Position numbers and translations under genes: made by a program
NCBI GenBank assembly: GCA_030041215.1
Contig: JASHOH010000117.1
Coordinates: 1-64,000 of the forward strand
Length of the DNA stretch: 64,000 nucleotides
Direction of reading: 5' to 3'
From: Candidatus Sulfotelmatobacter sp.
GTDB lineage: Bacteria; Acidobacteriota; Terriglobia; Terriglobales; Acidobacteriaceae
Shown here: positions 9,265 through 55,089 of the stretch, piece by piece
Layout of the letters: each line of letters opens with the position of its first letter
Numbering within the stretch: the first letter of the stretch is position 1
The notes under the pieces: model-generated
Seen by the model: only the letters and a program-made list of their open reading frames with translations
Told to the model about the DNA's origin: nothing
Databases searched by the model: none

Positions 9265-12141
9265 ATGAGTAAGGTTCGCATCAACGATCTTGCCCGAGAG
9301 CTGGAAGTCAAGAGCAAAGCCATTCTTGACGCACTCCCGCACGTGGGGATCACGGAAAAAAAGACCCACTCCAGTTCTCTGGAAGAACACGAAGCGGAGA
9401 AGGTGCGCGCGTATCTTCGCTCCGCAGGCGAGGGTTCGGCTTCGGCTGGTAAGTCCGCTTCGCGCGCCGCTCGCGGCGAAGAGGAAATCAAGACCAAAAT
9501 TGACTTGTCGCACATTACCCGTCCGGGCGATGTGCTGAAGGCGATCACGCAGCGCAAGGAAGCTGTAGCTGCGCCAGCGGCAGCGCCACGCGCGGCAGCC
9601 CCGGCCCACCCGGTCGTGGAAAAACCGGTTGCGCCTCCTCCGGCAGAAAGAGTTACGCCTCCAGCGGTCATGCGTCCGGCGGCAGCGCCACCCGCTCCGA
9701 AGCCGGTTGTGGCGGCATCAGCCGCGCCGCCTGCTCCTGCTCCTGCGCGCCCTGTGGTTGCACCGCCGGCTCCAGTCCCGGTTGCGCCGCCGCCTAGCGC
9801 AGTGCGTTCGGCAACACCTCCGCCGCCCCCAGTACAAGCGCCTTCCGTTGCCGTGCCAGCAGTGTCGGCCAGTTCTGCACAGGCTGCGACCGCCGTGCCA
9901 AAGCCGGCAGCCCCGCCAGCGGCGCCACGCATCATCATTCCGCAAACCGGCCCGCGGCCAGTTTATAAGGCTCCAACGCAGGCTACAGCGAGTGTTCAAC
10001 CTGGGGTTCCAATCGGCGGCGCGCGACCGGCTCCAGGACGCCCGGTACCCGGCCAGCCAATTTTCCAGCGTCGGCCGCCCGCCGCGAGCGGAGCGCCCAC
10101 GGCGCGTCCGCCGTTGCGTCCGGGCGAGCGCCGGCCGATGCATCCTACGCGCCAGGCGCCCGCAGGAGCAAGGCCTTTGGGCGTGGGTCCGGCGCTGCCG
10201 CCGCCTGGAACCACACGGCCCGGAGGACGTCCCGGTGCGCCCGCGCGGAGGCCCGGCCAGCGCTACGTGCCACGCGGCGTAAAAGAAGGCCCGATGAAGG
10301 GCTATACGCCGCCGCCGCGCATGGTGGTGTCCAATGAGCCGCTGCCCATCACGCGCAGCATCACGATCACCGAAGGCATCAGCGTAAAAGATCTCGCAGA
10401 AAAGCTTGCTATCCGCGCGAAAGACTTGATTTCGCGTTTACTGCTGCGCGGTGTTTTCGCAACAATTAACCAGACTTTGGATGCGGACCTCGCCAGCGAA
10501 ATGGCACGGTTCTTCGGGGCTGAGACGAACGTCATAACGTTCGAGGAGCAGACAGCAAAAGAAATCGACGCTGCCGTTGCCGGCGAGGAAGCAGCGCCCG
10601 AAACATCAGTCCGACCGCCTGTGGTCACGATCATGGGTCACGTCGATCATGGCAAGACAACGCTGCTCGATGCGATTCGTTCCACCAATGTGGCCGAGGG
10701 CGAAGCTGGAGGCATCACGCAGCACATCGGCGCGTACAAAGTTCGCATTGCCGACAAAGATTCTCCAGCTTACGGGCGCGAGATCGTGTTTCTCGATACC
10801 CCGGGTCACGAGGCATTCACGCGCATGCGCTCGCGCGGAGCCAAAGCCACCGACATCGTCGTTCTCGTCGTTGCGGCCGACGATGGAGTCATGCCGCAGA
10901 CACTGGAAGCTATCGACCATGCGCACGCCGCCGAAGTTCCGATCATCGTCGCCGTTAACAAGATCGATAAACCGGACGCTATGCCTGATCGCGTAAAGAA
11001 GCAACTCGCCGATCGTGGTCTGGTTCCGGAAGAGTGGGGCGGCAAAACAGTTTTCGTCGACGTTTCGGCCAAGCAGAAGACGAACCTCAACCTCTTACTG
11101 GAAATGATCTGCCTGGTTGCCGATCTCGCCGAACTGAAAGCCACCCCCGAGCGCGCTGCAACCGGGGTCGTACTCGAGGCAAAACTCGATCGCGGCCGAG
11201 GCCCGGTCGCCACGGTACTTGTGCAGAATGGAACGCTCAACGCCGGCGATAACTTTGTGGTCGGCAATGTCTACGGCAAAGTGCGGGCGATGTTCGACGA
11301 TCGCGGAAACCAGTTGCAGACTGCGCCGCCTTCGACTCCGGTCGAAATTCTCGGTATGGAGGCGTTGCCTCAGGCGGGAGATCAGTTTGTGGTGGTCGCC
11401 GACCGCGACAAAGCCCGCGGCATCTCCGAATACCGCGAGCAGAAGGCCCGTGAAGCGGCGCTCGCCAAGAGTTCCCGCGTTTCTTTGGAAGGTTTGGCCG
11501 AGCAGGTCAAATCTGCGGGCACGAAAGAGTTGAACGTCATTCTCAAGGGCGACGTGCAGGGATCAGTCGAAGTGATCACTGATCTGCTCAGCAAGCTTTC
11601 CAATGAGAAAGTGAGACTGAAGCTGCTGCGCTCAGGCGTAGGCGCGATTACCGAAACCGACGTTCTGCTCGCCTCGGCATCGAACGCCATCATCATCGGC
11701 TTCAATGTGCGGCCTGAGCGCAAGGCGCAAGAGCTGGCCGAGCAGGAAAAAGTCGACATCCGACTGCACTCGATCATTTACGAGTTGCAGGACGAGATCA
11801 AGCGCGCCATGAGCGGCCTGCTCGAACCGACGTTCAAAGAACACTATCAGGGCCGCGCCGAGGTGCTGAACACCTTCCGCATTCCGAAGGTTGGAACCGT
11901 CGCCGGCTGCCGTGTGATCGATGGCTTGATCAAGCGCGATTCCGAAGTCCGGCTGCTGCGCGACAACGTGCAGGTTTTCAAGGGCAAAGTGGCTTCGCTG
12001 CGGCGCTTCAAAGAGGACGCCAAAGAAGTCCACAACGGCATGGAGTGCGGCATCGCGATCGCGAATTATGGCGATATCAAAATCGGCGACGTGATCGAAG
12101 CCTTTGTCACAGAGAGAATTGCGGCGGAAGTGATTGCATAA
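9265..12141 (+). CDS. infB: Translation initiation factor IF-2
   Basis: GTPase that brings fMet-tRNA to the 30S subunit and promotes subunit joining. Full length, 958 residues. N-terminal InfB_N motif ([20 protein letters not shown]), then a long Pro/Ala-rich low-complexity linker (about residues 95-355), a second N2-type domain ([20 protein letters not shown]), G domain with [11 protein letters not shown] (from residue 458), DTPGHEAF and NKIDKP, and the C-terminal tRNA-binding domains. A 99-base gap follows nusA; it contains a 17-codon ORF at 9168-9218 of doubtful meaning and no ylxR-type gene, which often sits here. Confidence 0.97.
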
Positions 12142-24647: not shown

Positions 24648-25946
24648 GTGCCAGCCCAACCAACTCCGTCGGTTCTGAGCTTCGAGGAAGCCCGTGCGGT
24701 CGTCGAAAAGCACGCCTCGCAGATAGTGGCAACGCATCACGAATCTTGCTCGCTTCTGGCTGCCTCCGGACGAATTCTCGCCGAACCAATTCTCGCCGAT
24801 CGCGACTTTCCTCCCTTTCCCCGCGCCACCCGCGATGGTTACGCAGTTCGTGCTTCTGACCTGAAAAATCTTCCCGCAAATCTGAGAGTGATCGGCGAAA
24901 TCAAAGCCGGCCCAGTCGAACCGATCCCCTCCCTGAACTCGGGCGAGGCATTTTCCATCATGACCGGCGCCCCCGTGCCCCCTGGTGCCGATGCCGTAGT
25001 GATGGTCGAGTACACGTCTGTGCGTGGCGATTCCGTCGAAATCACAAGAACCGTCTCTGCCAGAGAAAATATCGTGCCCCAGGGAGCCGAAGCGAAACGC
25101 GGCAGTGTGCTGCTAGAGCGCGGCACACGCCTCAACGAAACCGCGATCGCCCTGGCTGGGTCAGTCGGCAAAGCCAAGGTGGAAGTTTTCTCGCGCCCTC
25201 GCGTTGCCGTGCTTACTACGGGTGATGAGATCGTCGAGGTCGATTGTCAGCCCGGTCCGGCGCAAATCCGCAATTCGAACAGGTACTCTCTGGCCGTGCA
25301 GATCGAGCGAGTGGGCGGCATTCCTGAACTGTTGCCCATTGCCCCGGATGAACCAAAGCGACTGCACGAACTAATCGAGCAAGGTCTACACTCCGATCTG
25401 CTCATCATGACCGGCGGCGTCTCGATGGGGCGATATGACTTGGTCGAGCAAGTCCTGACCGATCTTCAAGCAGAGTTTTTCTTCACCGGGGCCAAAATCC
25501 AACCCGGCCGTCCGGTAGTGTTTGGGTGCCTCAGGCCGTGTGGCGCGGAACCATGTGGCGCGGGCACTCCAGCCCGCGAAAAGCCGGCACCCTGCAAATA
25601 TTTCTTCGGCCTTCCCGGCAATCCCATCTCAACCATGGTCACTTTTGAACTGTTTGCCAAGCCGATGGTCGAAGCGCTCTCTGGAATGCGCCCCCAGCCC
25701 CTTGTCTTTTTGCATGCAAAGCTGAAATCCGACATCCGCGTTAAGACCGGACTGAAGCGCTTCTTGCCCGCAATCTTCTCGGGAAAATACGAAGACTCGC
25801 ACGTAGAACTCGTTCCCTGGCAGGGATCGGGCGATCTCGCGGCCCAGGCCGGCGCCAATTGCTACGTCGTCGTTCCACCAGATCGCGAACGAATCTCTGC
25901 CGGCGAGTGGGTCCCGGTGATGCTACGCTGGACAACTCCCATGTAA
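24648..25946 (+). CDS. moeA: Molybdopterin molybdenumtransferase MoeA with an in-frame repeat insertion
   Basis: Inserts molybdenum into adenylylated molybdopterin. 432 residues with the family motifs: FPPFPRATRDGYAVR, FSIMTGAPVPPGADAVVMVE, TGDEIV, TGGVSMGRYDLVEQVL and FFGLPGNPISTMVTFE. Between PGRPVVFG and FFGLPGNP, where homologues usually have only a few residues, lie about 23 extra residues (294-316) rich in Cys, Pro, Gly and Ala, encoded by a sequence resembling the intergenic GC hairpin repeats. Start is GTG at 24648; no ATG fits. TATCAT at 24636-24641 lies six bases before it, so a leaderless transcript is possible. Same strand as moaC, 15 bases on. Confidence 0.92.
   Translation: MPAQPTPSVLSFEEARAVVEKHASQIVATHHESCSLLAASGRILAEPILADRDFPPFPRATRDGYAVRASDLKNLPANLRVIGEIKAGPVEPIPSLNSGEAFSIMTGAPVPPGADAVVMVEYTSVRGDSVEITRTVSARENIVPQGAEAKRGSVLLERGTRLNETAIALAGSVGKAKVEVFSRPRVAVLTTGDEIVEVDCQPGPAQIRNSNRYSLAVQIERVGGIPELLPIAPDEPKRLHELIEQGLHSDLLIMTGGVSMGRYDLVEQVLTDLQAEFFFTGAKIQPGRPVVFGCLRPCGAEPCGAGTPAREKPAPCKYFFGLPGNPISTMVTFELFAKPMVEALSGMRPQPLVFLHAKLKSDIRVKTGLKRFLPAIFSGKYEDSHVELVPWQGSGDLAAQAGANCYVVVPPDRERISAGEWVPVMLRWTTPM
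25527..25595. repeat. GC-hairpin repeat lying in frame within moeA
   Basis: TGTGGCGCGGGCACTCCAGC with CCCGCGAA after it (25554-25580) matches the reverse complement of the intergenic hairpin at 54495-54516 apart from loop changes (GCGGGC ACTC.. GCCCGC). A second partial TGTGGCGCGG precedes it at 25539. The 69 bases are a multiple of three and contain no stop in the moeA frame. Confidence 0.65.
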
Positions 25947-25961
25947 GATAGAAACTTCGGG

Positions 25962-26432
25962 ATGGCGAAAAAGCTCTCTCATTACGACGCGTCGGGCCGC
26001 GCCCGCATGGTTGACGTCTCTAATAAAGCTGCCAGCCGCCGCGAGGCCGAAGCCAGCGCTTTTGTCGAGATGCCTTTTTCTGTTCTCGAAGCCCTGCCGC
26101 GCAATCCCAAGGGCGATCCCCTAGAAGTGGCGCGGGTGGCCGGAATTATGGCCGCCAAACGAACTCAGGAATTGATTCCTATGTGTCATCCCCTGCCGCT
26201 GTCGCACGTTGATGTCGCCATGCGCCTGTGCGAGAATGGCGTCGCCATCACCACAAAAGTGATTACAACGGCGGAAACTGGAGTTGAGATGGAAGCTCTG
26301 GTTGCCGCCGGAATCTCCGCTCTTACGCTTTACGACATGGTGAAAGGCCTCGACAAAGGAATTGTGATCCGCGAAATTGCTCTTGAAAGGAAGACGGGCG
26401 GCAAGAGTGGCGACTACCGGCGCAAAAAATAA
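25962..26432 (+). CDS. moaC: Cyclic pyranopterin monophosphate synthase
   Basis: Converts the cyclised GTP intermediate made by MoaA to cyclic pyranopterin monophosphate. 156 residues, usual length. Seen: MVDVSNKAASRREAEAS, the active-site ELIPMCHPLPLSHVDV and TTAETGVEMEALVAAGISAL then YDMVKGLDKG. Starts 15 bases after moeA and ends two bases before the response regulator, forming one transcriptional unit. moaA, moaE and moaD are not in the window. Confidence 0.95.
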   Translation: MAKKLSHYDASGRARMVDVSNKAASRREAEASAFVEMPFSVLEALPRNPKGDPLEVARVAGIMAAKRTQELIPMCHPLPLSHVDVAMRLCENGVAITTKVITTAETGVEMEALVAAGISALTLYDMVKGLDKGIVIREIALERKTGGKSGDYRRKK

Positions 26433-54290: not shown

Positions 54291-54379
54291 CATATTAGGG
54301 ATGACGGTGCTGCACGCGATTTCCCACTCAAGCCAGGACCGGGCTTGAGTGGGCCGCCCGCCCGTCACGGCCGTGCTAA

Positions 54380-55089
54380 TCGCTGCGGGCGAGAAGGCAG
54401 GTTCCTCACCCGCGCTTCGCGCGTGTTCGGAATGACAATTTGTCAACGAGGGCGCTTGACGCGGCGCTCAAGCGCCGCTCTTCCACGGCAATTCGCGGGC
54501 ATGAGTGCCCGCGCCACACGGCGTCATTCCGAAGGCCCGCGCTTTCACCAGCGGGCCGAGGAATCTCCCGATCGACGGATTAACGGGATGGAGATCCTTC
54601 GCTCCGCCTGGGGTCCCTCGCTATGCTCGGGATTTCGGCGCGCGGCTCAGACGCCGCGCAAACGCCTCAAGCTGCGCTCAGGATGACAGAAAAGCAGGTT
54701 CCCATTCGAGTCCTTCGCTGCGCTTAGTCCCTCAGGGCAGGCTCTCACCGGTCCTTCGGACCGATTCGGAATGACAGTGTTGAGAGAGGGCGTTATCGCA
54801 GCGCTGAAGCGCTGCGCCGCCTAGAGGCTTTACGGCGCCGCTGAGGCGCTTCGCGACCTAGAATGACAGAAAAAGCAGGTTCCCGTTCGACTCCTTCGCT
54901 GCGCTCAGTCCCTCAGGGCAGGCTCTCACCGGCGCTTCGCGGCGGTTCGGAATGACATCGTTAGGAGGGCGCGTTATCGCAGCGCTGAAGCGCTGCTCCA
55001 CCCAAAATCCGCTTCAACGCGGCGCTGAAAGCTTGCCCTGAGCGAAATGAACGAAGCGAATGAGTCGAACGGGCGCCGCTCTTCCACGG
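54380..55089. repeat. Repeat cluster
   Basis: Fills much of the 982-base gap 54274-55255. In order: GGCAGGTTCCTCACCCGCGC at ~54394; hairpins 54461-54488 (GCGGCGCTCAAGCGCCGC then TCTTCCACGG) and 54495-54512; 54520-54569 copy of 30763; 54590-54688 reverse copy of 46806; two ~133-base tandem units at 54683-54815 and 54862-54996, containing CTCAGGGCAGGCTCTCACCG; and an interrupted hairpin 55019-55089. No gene is supported here. Confidence 0.8.

Follow-up and report, generated by a model that had tools for sequence, protein, structure and literature searches.

The moeA gene in a 64,000-nucleotide stretch of Candidatus Sulfotelmatobacter DNA (the window) carries a copy of an interspersed REP within its coding sequence. 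The repeat belongs to a family found throughout the host genome and associated with a RAYT transposase. It lies in the reading frame of moeA at a place predicted to be coil, and the elements at this place differ in type and orientation between species. We consider it probable that the insert is a RAYT-associated REP in a MoeA loop where elements are repeatedly inserted or retained and undergo turnover. Because the same MoeA loop holds different repeats in relatives, in either orientation, the loops of ordinary enzymes can harbour mobile DNA.

A REP copy inside moeA

The window moeA (molybdopterin molybdotransferase, 24648..25946, + strand) encodes 432 aa. Its frame runs from a GTG start at 24648 to the stop at 25944-25946 and is open throughout, so that the insert lies in frame without a stop, as had been predicted. 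The product matches the Pfam families MoeA_N, MoCF_biosynth and MoeA_C, and its model matches the folds of Cnx1E, gephyrin E and E. coli MoeA (Z 33-37). The next gene, moaC (25962..26432, +), is given for context only. The expanded MoeA loop spans 25527..25598 (+) and comprises 24 codons, CLRPCGAEPCGAGTPAREKPAPCK. The original prediction correctly placed an insertion between PGRPVVFG and FFGLPGNP, but gave its end as 25595, where we measured 25598 and 24 residues between PGRPVVFG and YFFGLPGNP; its estimate of about 23 added residues becomes about 19 when set against the 5-residue loop of 26 of the 37 more distant loci.

The REP copy within this loop lies at 25554..25580 (+), with a GTGG foot at 25555-25558 directly at the base of a hairpin at 25559-25578. 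The predicted match to the reverse complement of an intergenic hairpin held, with 2 mismatches in 27 positions against the copy at 54492..54518 (-), whose neighbours are a GGDEF/response-regulator-like gene on one side and a leuC-like gene on the other (names assigned by reading the translations only). A 24-base core, GTGGCGCGGGCACTNNNGCCCGCG, is the same letter for letter in both copies, and no match for this pairing was seen in 100 dinucleotide shuffles of the window. A second, partial copy, the truncated REP head CCGTGTGGCGCGG, is found upstream of the full copy at 25536..25548 (+). Six of the 30 host loci read (moeA and five elsewhere) have such a head 16-21 nt upstream of the full copy, and a seventh has one at -39. 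The window copy is not a REPIN, in which two inverted REPs form one unit; it consists of a full copy and a truncated head in the same orientation, with no inverted pair.

The host genome (5.03 Mb, 251 contigs) contains 44 matches at ≤2 mismatches to a pattern slightly looser than the moeA copy, compared to two for the same pattern read backwards. The moeA insert is thus a copy of an interspersed REP, and the copies exceed chance GC similarity, one of the points on which the prediction had turned. In its consensus form the repeat has a GTGG foot and then a hairpin. REPs carry a GTAG or GTGG tetranucleotide 0-2 nt 5' of the hairpin, and in the short type 7-20 nt are fully paired in the basal stem and the loop has 2-5 nt (PMC6006769; this and the other PMC articles are cited for parts of their text). 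The stem measures 8 bp in the intergenic copy and 7 bp in the moeA copy, with loops of 4 and 6 nt, respectively. More than 100 copies are called usual for REPs (PMC2817692), and the 44 host matches are fewer. Across the genus, a survey pattern that gives 25 sites in the host was present in 43 of the 44 other genomes, at 1 to 93 sites each, and its reversed control matched three times over the 45 genus genomes. Outside the genus, the repeat pattern occurs in part of the family; beyond the family there are 0 to 4 sites, except in genomes G141 (15) and G147 (27).

The host has six Y1 transposase loci. One of these, C185:11244-11990, is situated among three repeat copies, at 10784 (-), 11371 (+) and 12017 (-). 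The copies at 11371 and 12017 are inverted around the transposase domain, which is the flanking arrangement described for RAYTs (PMC2817692); the copy at 11371 is inside the stop-to-stop frame and precedes the Y1 match at 11673. The locus passes the NCBIfam model NF047646 REP_Tyr_transpos with 86.7 bits against a cut-off of 80. The other five host Y1 loci showed no REP at ≤3 mismatches in the stretches read. Relatives of the C185 RAYT at E ≤1e-20 were found in 20 of the 61 genomes searched, host included, and not in the other 41, G013 among them. The 94.5 kb surrounding the 30 RAYT loci kept contain 52 REP-like sites, compared to none for the reversed pattern; at least one site accompanies 17 of the loci, and 13 have no REP by the pattern used. 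Judged on sequence, the repeat fits published REP descriptions in its GT(A/G)G foot, its hairpin and a transposase with inverted flanking copies, and the association leads us to infer that a RAYT is the agent which mobilises the moeA repeat. Three RAYT relatives (L239, L240, L241) are flanked by another REP type, GTGGG[TA]CGGACACT..., which suggests that REP types are transposase-specific.

Chance similarity of GC-rich sequence might be suspected, since GC content is high here and the MoeA frames outside the loop also contain many short hairpins (0.54 per kb at ≥7 bp). The reversed-pattern and shuffle controls rule this out, with 0 matches expected in the window, 44 against 2 genome-wide and 52 against 0 around the RAYTs, and we assign it a negligible probability.

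The AlphaFold model of the window MoeA has a mean pLDDT of 93 overall and of 65 for residues 301-310. The insert forms coil between the strands at 291-295 and 317-322. We tested four REP types and found all six frames of each to be free of stop codons. Since the loop tolerates additional residues and the REP is free of stops in six frames, an insert of a multiple of three nucleotides survives, leaving a slightly longer protein. The prediction of an interspersed hairpin tolerated in frame within a loop is upheld by the host copy counts, by the loops of relatives and by the predicted coil. The insert probably brings no benefit to MoeA.

The MoeA loop across relatives

We found MoeA in 139 of the 150 genomes searched, host included. 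Among 190 MoeA loci, the loop was parsed in 172 and the motif failed in 18; removal of 25 duplicates left 147 distinct loci. Six of the 18 unparsed loci were re-read and kept outside all counts: REP-like loop peptides are seen in L100 and L187, the loop of L113 is short, and no usable reading came from L098 or L134. The sixth, L192, is cut off by the end of its moeA contig within the REP-encoded peptide, which means that copies of this kind may be under-counted in assemblies.

At ≤2 mismatches, 32 REP elements with 22 different sequences occur in 29 of the 147 distinct MoeA loops. At ≤3 mismatches there are 38 sites, some palindromic double counts included, in 7,257 nt of loop, compared to five in 182,055 nt of the remaining frames and none for the reversed pattern in the loops. 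Among 68 family rows, hairpins of ≥7 bp reach 6.52 per kb in the loop against 0.54 per kb in the rest of the MoeA frames, and the 21 loop hairpins observed compare with a codon-shuffled mean of 1.65 and a maximum of 5. The full alignment of these rows has inserts of ≥4 residues after residue 306 in 30 rows and after residue 293 in three, while inserts elsewhere in MoeA are ≤8 residues.

We tallied the 41 rows, from 40 genomes, that are marked as belonging to the genus of the host. A forward REP is present in 16, an inverted REP in two, both in one, and another perfect hairpin of ≥8 bp in three, of which L036 and L038 are REP-like with a GTGG foot (V type). The remaining 19 rows have neither a REP nor a perfect hairpin, with longer loops in 11, loops of 6-12 residues in six, and of ≤5 residues in two. 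None of the 37 loci parsed from L101-L140 (class and distant family members) has a REP; in this group the 5-residue loop predominates. Loops range from 4 to 53 residues, and the peptide varies in sequence and orientation. These comparisons speak against a single, lineage-specific insertion, since 22 of the 41 genus rows have a REP or perfect hairpin of differing sequence type and orientation, in addition to the 11 longer loops. The outcome that would have told against the prediction, namely close relatives with the same residues at this position, did not appear in the alignment of relatives' MoeA. An insert unique to the host strain is refuted by the REPs that relatives carry at the same loop. 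A further assembly, G001, has two moeA genes (L050 and L090) with different loop elements; these may stem from two organisms, as this assembly has 9% contamination.

The named relatives are almost all MAGs and the L192 contig ends within its element, so it could be asked whether repeats were misjoined into moeA during assembly. This is highly improbable, given elements that are in frame, free of stops and located at the same codons of moeA in many assemblies, some of them on contigs of 619 kb (L038), 408 kb (L054) and 268 kb (L035).

A useful hairpin or peptide, which would tune the moeA-moaC mRNA or add surface to MoeA and be kept by selection, also appears unlikely. Stem pairing persists in many copies where both sides have changed, and the DNA of 25552-25582 (31 nt) folds at -10 kcal/mol with a z of -3.45 against its shuffles, which would favour such a role. 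However, peptide sequence, length and orientation are not conserved, eight of the 41 genus rows have loops of ≤12 residues and no REP, and the loop is predicted at low confidence. A stable RNA structure across the whole insert was not supported: for the 75-nt RNA region, stability does not exceed that of its shuffles (z -0.36), which also weighs against selection on the mRNA.

Orientation and probable turnover of the loop elements

The closest relative of the window gene is L032, from genome G013 of the same genus, which has 82% identity and an inverted REP. The two are sisters with an SH-aLRT of 100 in a quick MoeA tree calculated with the loop left out, in which 28 of the 84 inner branches are open. 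Parsimony over 87 rows and seven loop states gave 42 changes, five of which are between forward and inverted. Presence of the REP changed nine times, with longer and other-hairpin loops left out. Loops L090, L162 and L170 each hold one forward and one inverted copy, and L054 and L163 apparently have other sequence inside the element. Other hairpins occupy the loop in L097, L160, L173 and L175. The L160 hairpin, GGCACGGCTTCAGCCGTGCC, is interspersed in all seven genomes tested, with 16 matches at 15 places in the host and none for the control. No insertion event with its junctions was seen among the MoeA loops compared.

Comparison of the 22 distinct loop copies reveals that stem pairs 6 and 8 occur as G-C or A-T and pair 1 as C-G or G-C, and that some copies have broken pairs. 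Two-sided changes of this kind are expected if copies are drawn from or exchanged with a genomic pool, or if pairing is kept. We compared the loop elements with the REP classes of their own genomes. The comparison started from 42 loci, of which 22 were classable; L062 (tied) and L046 (fewer than five other copies) were dropped, leaving 20 loci from 19 genomes. The loop element belongs to the commonest of three REP classes in its own genome in 13 of these 20, two of them via ties (L058, L061). The mean share of the own class is 0.587 compared to 0.388 by permutation (p 0.00055, uncorrected for phylogeny). The stricter notion that every moeA element matches the REP class of its own genome fails, as seven of the 20 differ. 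The V-type loops of G035 and G040 have no further copy in their own genomes at ≤1 mismatch.

A single insertion at the base of the genus could also have been inherited vertically and then altered by mutation, deletion, inversion in place and gene conversion with intergenic REPs, with no new insertions. This history is possible, although we regard it as doubtful. It would explain why the forward copies agree in frame (CGAG..AR-like peptides) and position, and why the window gene has the right flank CCGGCACC in common with L033 and with its sister L032, whose REP is inverted; the reduced loops of L034, L040 and L068 could be losses. It accounts poorly for the other hairpins in four of the loops, that of L160 being interspersed in every genome tested, for the three forward-inverted pairs, and for the nine presence and five orientation changes under parsimony. 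Forward copies that have one frame and nearly one position do count against turnover, in that they also fit a single old insertion followed by decay and sequence exchange. The 41 genomes that lack a relative of the C185 RAYT, the 13 RAYT loci with no REP by the pattern used, the loop copies with broken stem pairs and the elements outside the commonest class of their genome likewise weigh against the reading proposed below.

Overall, recurrent occupation of the loop with turnover is likely. We propose that the REP sits in the tip loop of a predicted MoeA β-hairpin and that, in Candidatus Sulfotelmatobacter and its near relatives, this loop would repeatedly receive or retain insertions. The elements that may arrive there, decay, be replaced or turned round, and be lost include REPs and one or more other interspersed families, while the rest of MoeA would stay nearly free of large inserts. 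Turnover would be driven by RAYT (TnpA-REP) chemistry on single-stranded DNA, or by exchange with other REP copies.

Known repeat systems and other enzyme loops

The window repeat resembles the REP/RAYT systems (PMC2817692, PMC6006769) in its GT(A/G)G foot, short palindrome, interspersed copies and tyrosine transposase flanked by inverted copies, and the P. putida REP TGTGGGAGCGGGCgTGCCCGCGAA (PMC2817692) looks much like it. It differs in its Acidobacteriota host and modest copy number (25 sites by the survey pattern). For Acidobacteria, PMC3733652 names TIR-flanked transposases, and PMC6006769 describes class 3 proteins with a CnGA foot, with about 600 copies in Solibacter usitatus. The loops with two inverted REPs (L090, L162, L170) are similar to REPINs/BIMEs, but these pairs lie inside coding sequence, and in the window copy the truncated head has the same orientation as the full REP.

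PMC3733652 reports in-frame REPs within genes of several species, truB being one of those named, so the kind of insert is already known. In that work, recB of two Xanthomonas species has different REPs at about the same site; moeA is not named among the genes with intragenic REPs in the relevant section of its main text. The present case differs in that one loop is followed across 40 genus genomes, with both orientations, forward-inverted pairs and other families. The original prediction likened the insert to the Rickettsia palindromic elements, which are palindromic repeats in frame in likely functional genes (cited in PMC3733652). The likeness stands, by description only, for an in-frame interspersed hairpin; the kind is different, as the repeat fits a REP with an associated RAYT. 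In the open-licence literature we found no description of one loop occupied by several repeat families across a genus, and PMC3733652 comes nearest.

Repeats in genes have usually been reported singly, whereas the present data follow a single orthologous loop through 40 genus genomes. The MoeA loop would thus be a natural record of REP entry, turning, replacement and exit. The spread of REPs is poorly understood (PMC8266576), and the loop allows tests of this spread and of the frequency with which mobile DNA contributes new protein sequence. A further caution is that peptides encoded by repeats may be present in alignments of conserved enzymes.

Finally, we considered other host genes. We read 30 of the 44 host matches, of which 18 lie in 21 mechanical frames (≥60 residues before the copy and ≥40 after). 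Ten frames, picked by reading, were scanned and nine match Pfam families. The families besides MoeA are S1, ThiE, DsbH-like, RNase R, TldD, TruB, uracil-DNA glycosylase, Thy1 and a solute-binding protein. The copies in the uracil-DNA glycosylase, Thy1 and solute-binding frames precede the matched domain and may therefore fall within a leader or ahead of the true start, and those in the DsbH-like and RNase R frames are less typical of the repeat family. Host copies L006, L015, L023, L024 and L025 are placed in frame in S1, ThiE, TldD and TruB and before a uracil-DNA glycosylase-like domain.

The TruB loop has 24-97 residues at loci L263-L292, where a first motif caught five of the 30 loci and a wider one all 30. 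Its hairpin density is 3.49 per kb compared to 0.40 elsewhere in the frames. In RNase R, the loop that separates the RNB and S1 domains has 62-100 residues in 20 of the 30 loci L293-L322, the motif having left the other ten uncounted, with 2.56 hairpins per kb against 0.44 in the rest of the frames. A REP at ≤3 mismatches is present in four of the 30 TruB loops and four of the 20 RNase R loops, and several TruB loops contain other hairpin repeats in frame. We tentatively suggest that the loops of MoeA, TruB, RNase R and perhaps other enzymes are standing harbours of several mobile families throughout the genus, in which resident REPs are repeatedly inserted or exchanged. If true, a population of transposase-linked repeats would keep rewriting parts of essential proteins with its own hairpin kept intact. 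The window also has an intergenic repeat cluster around 54300-54700, and its hairpin at 54325-54351 recurs in the RNase R loop of L308, from another genome.
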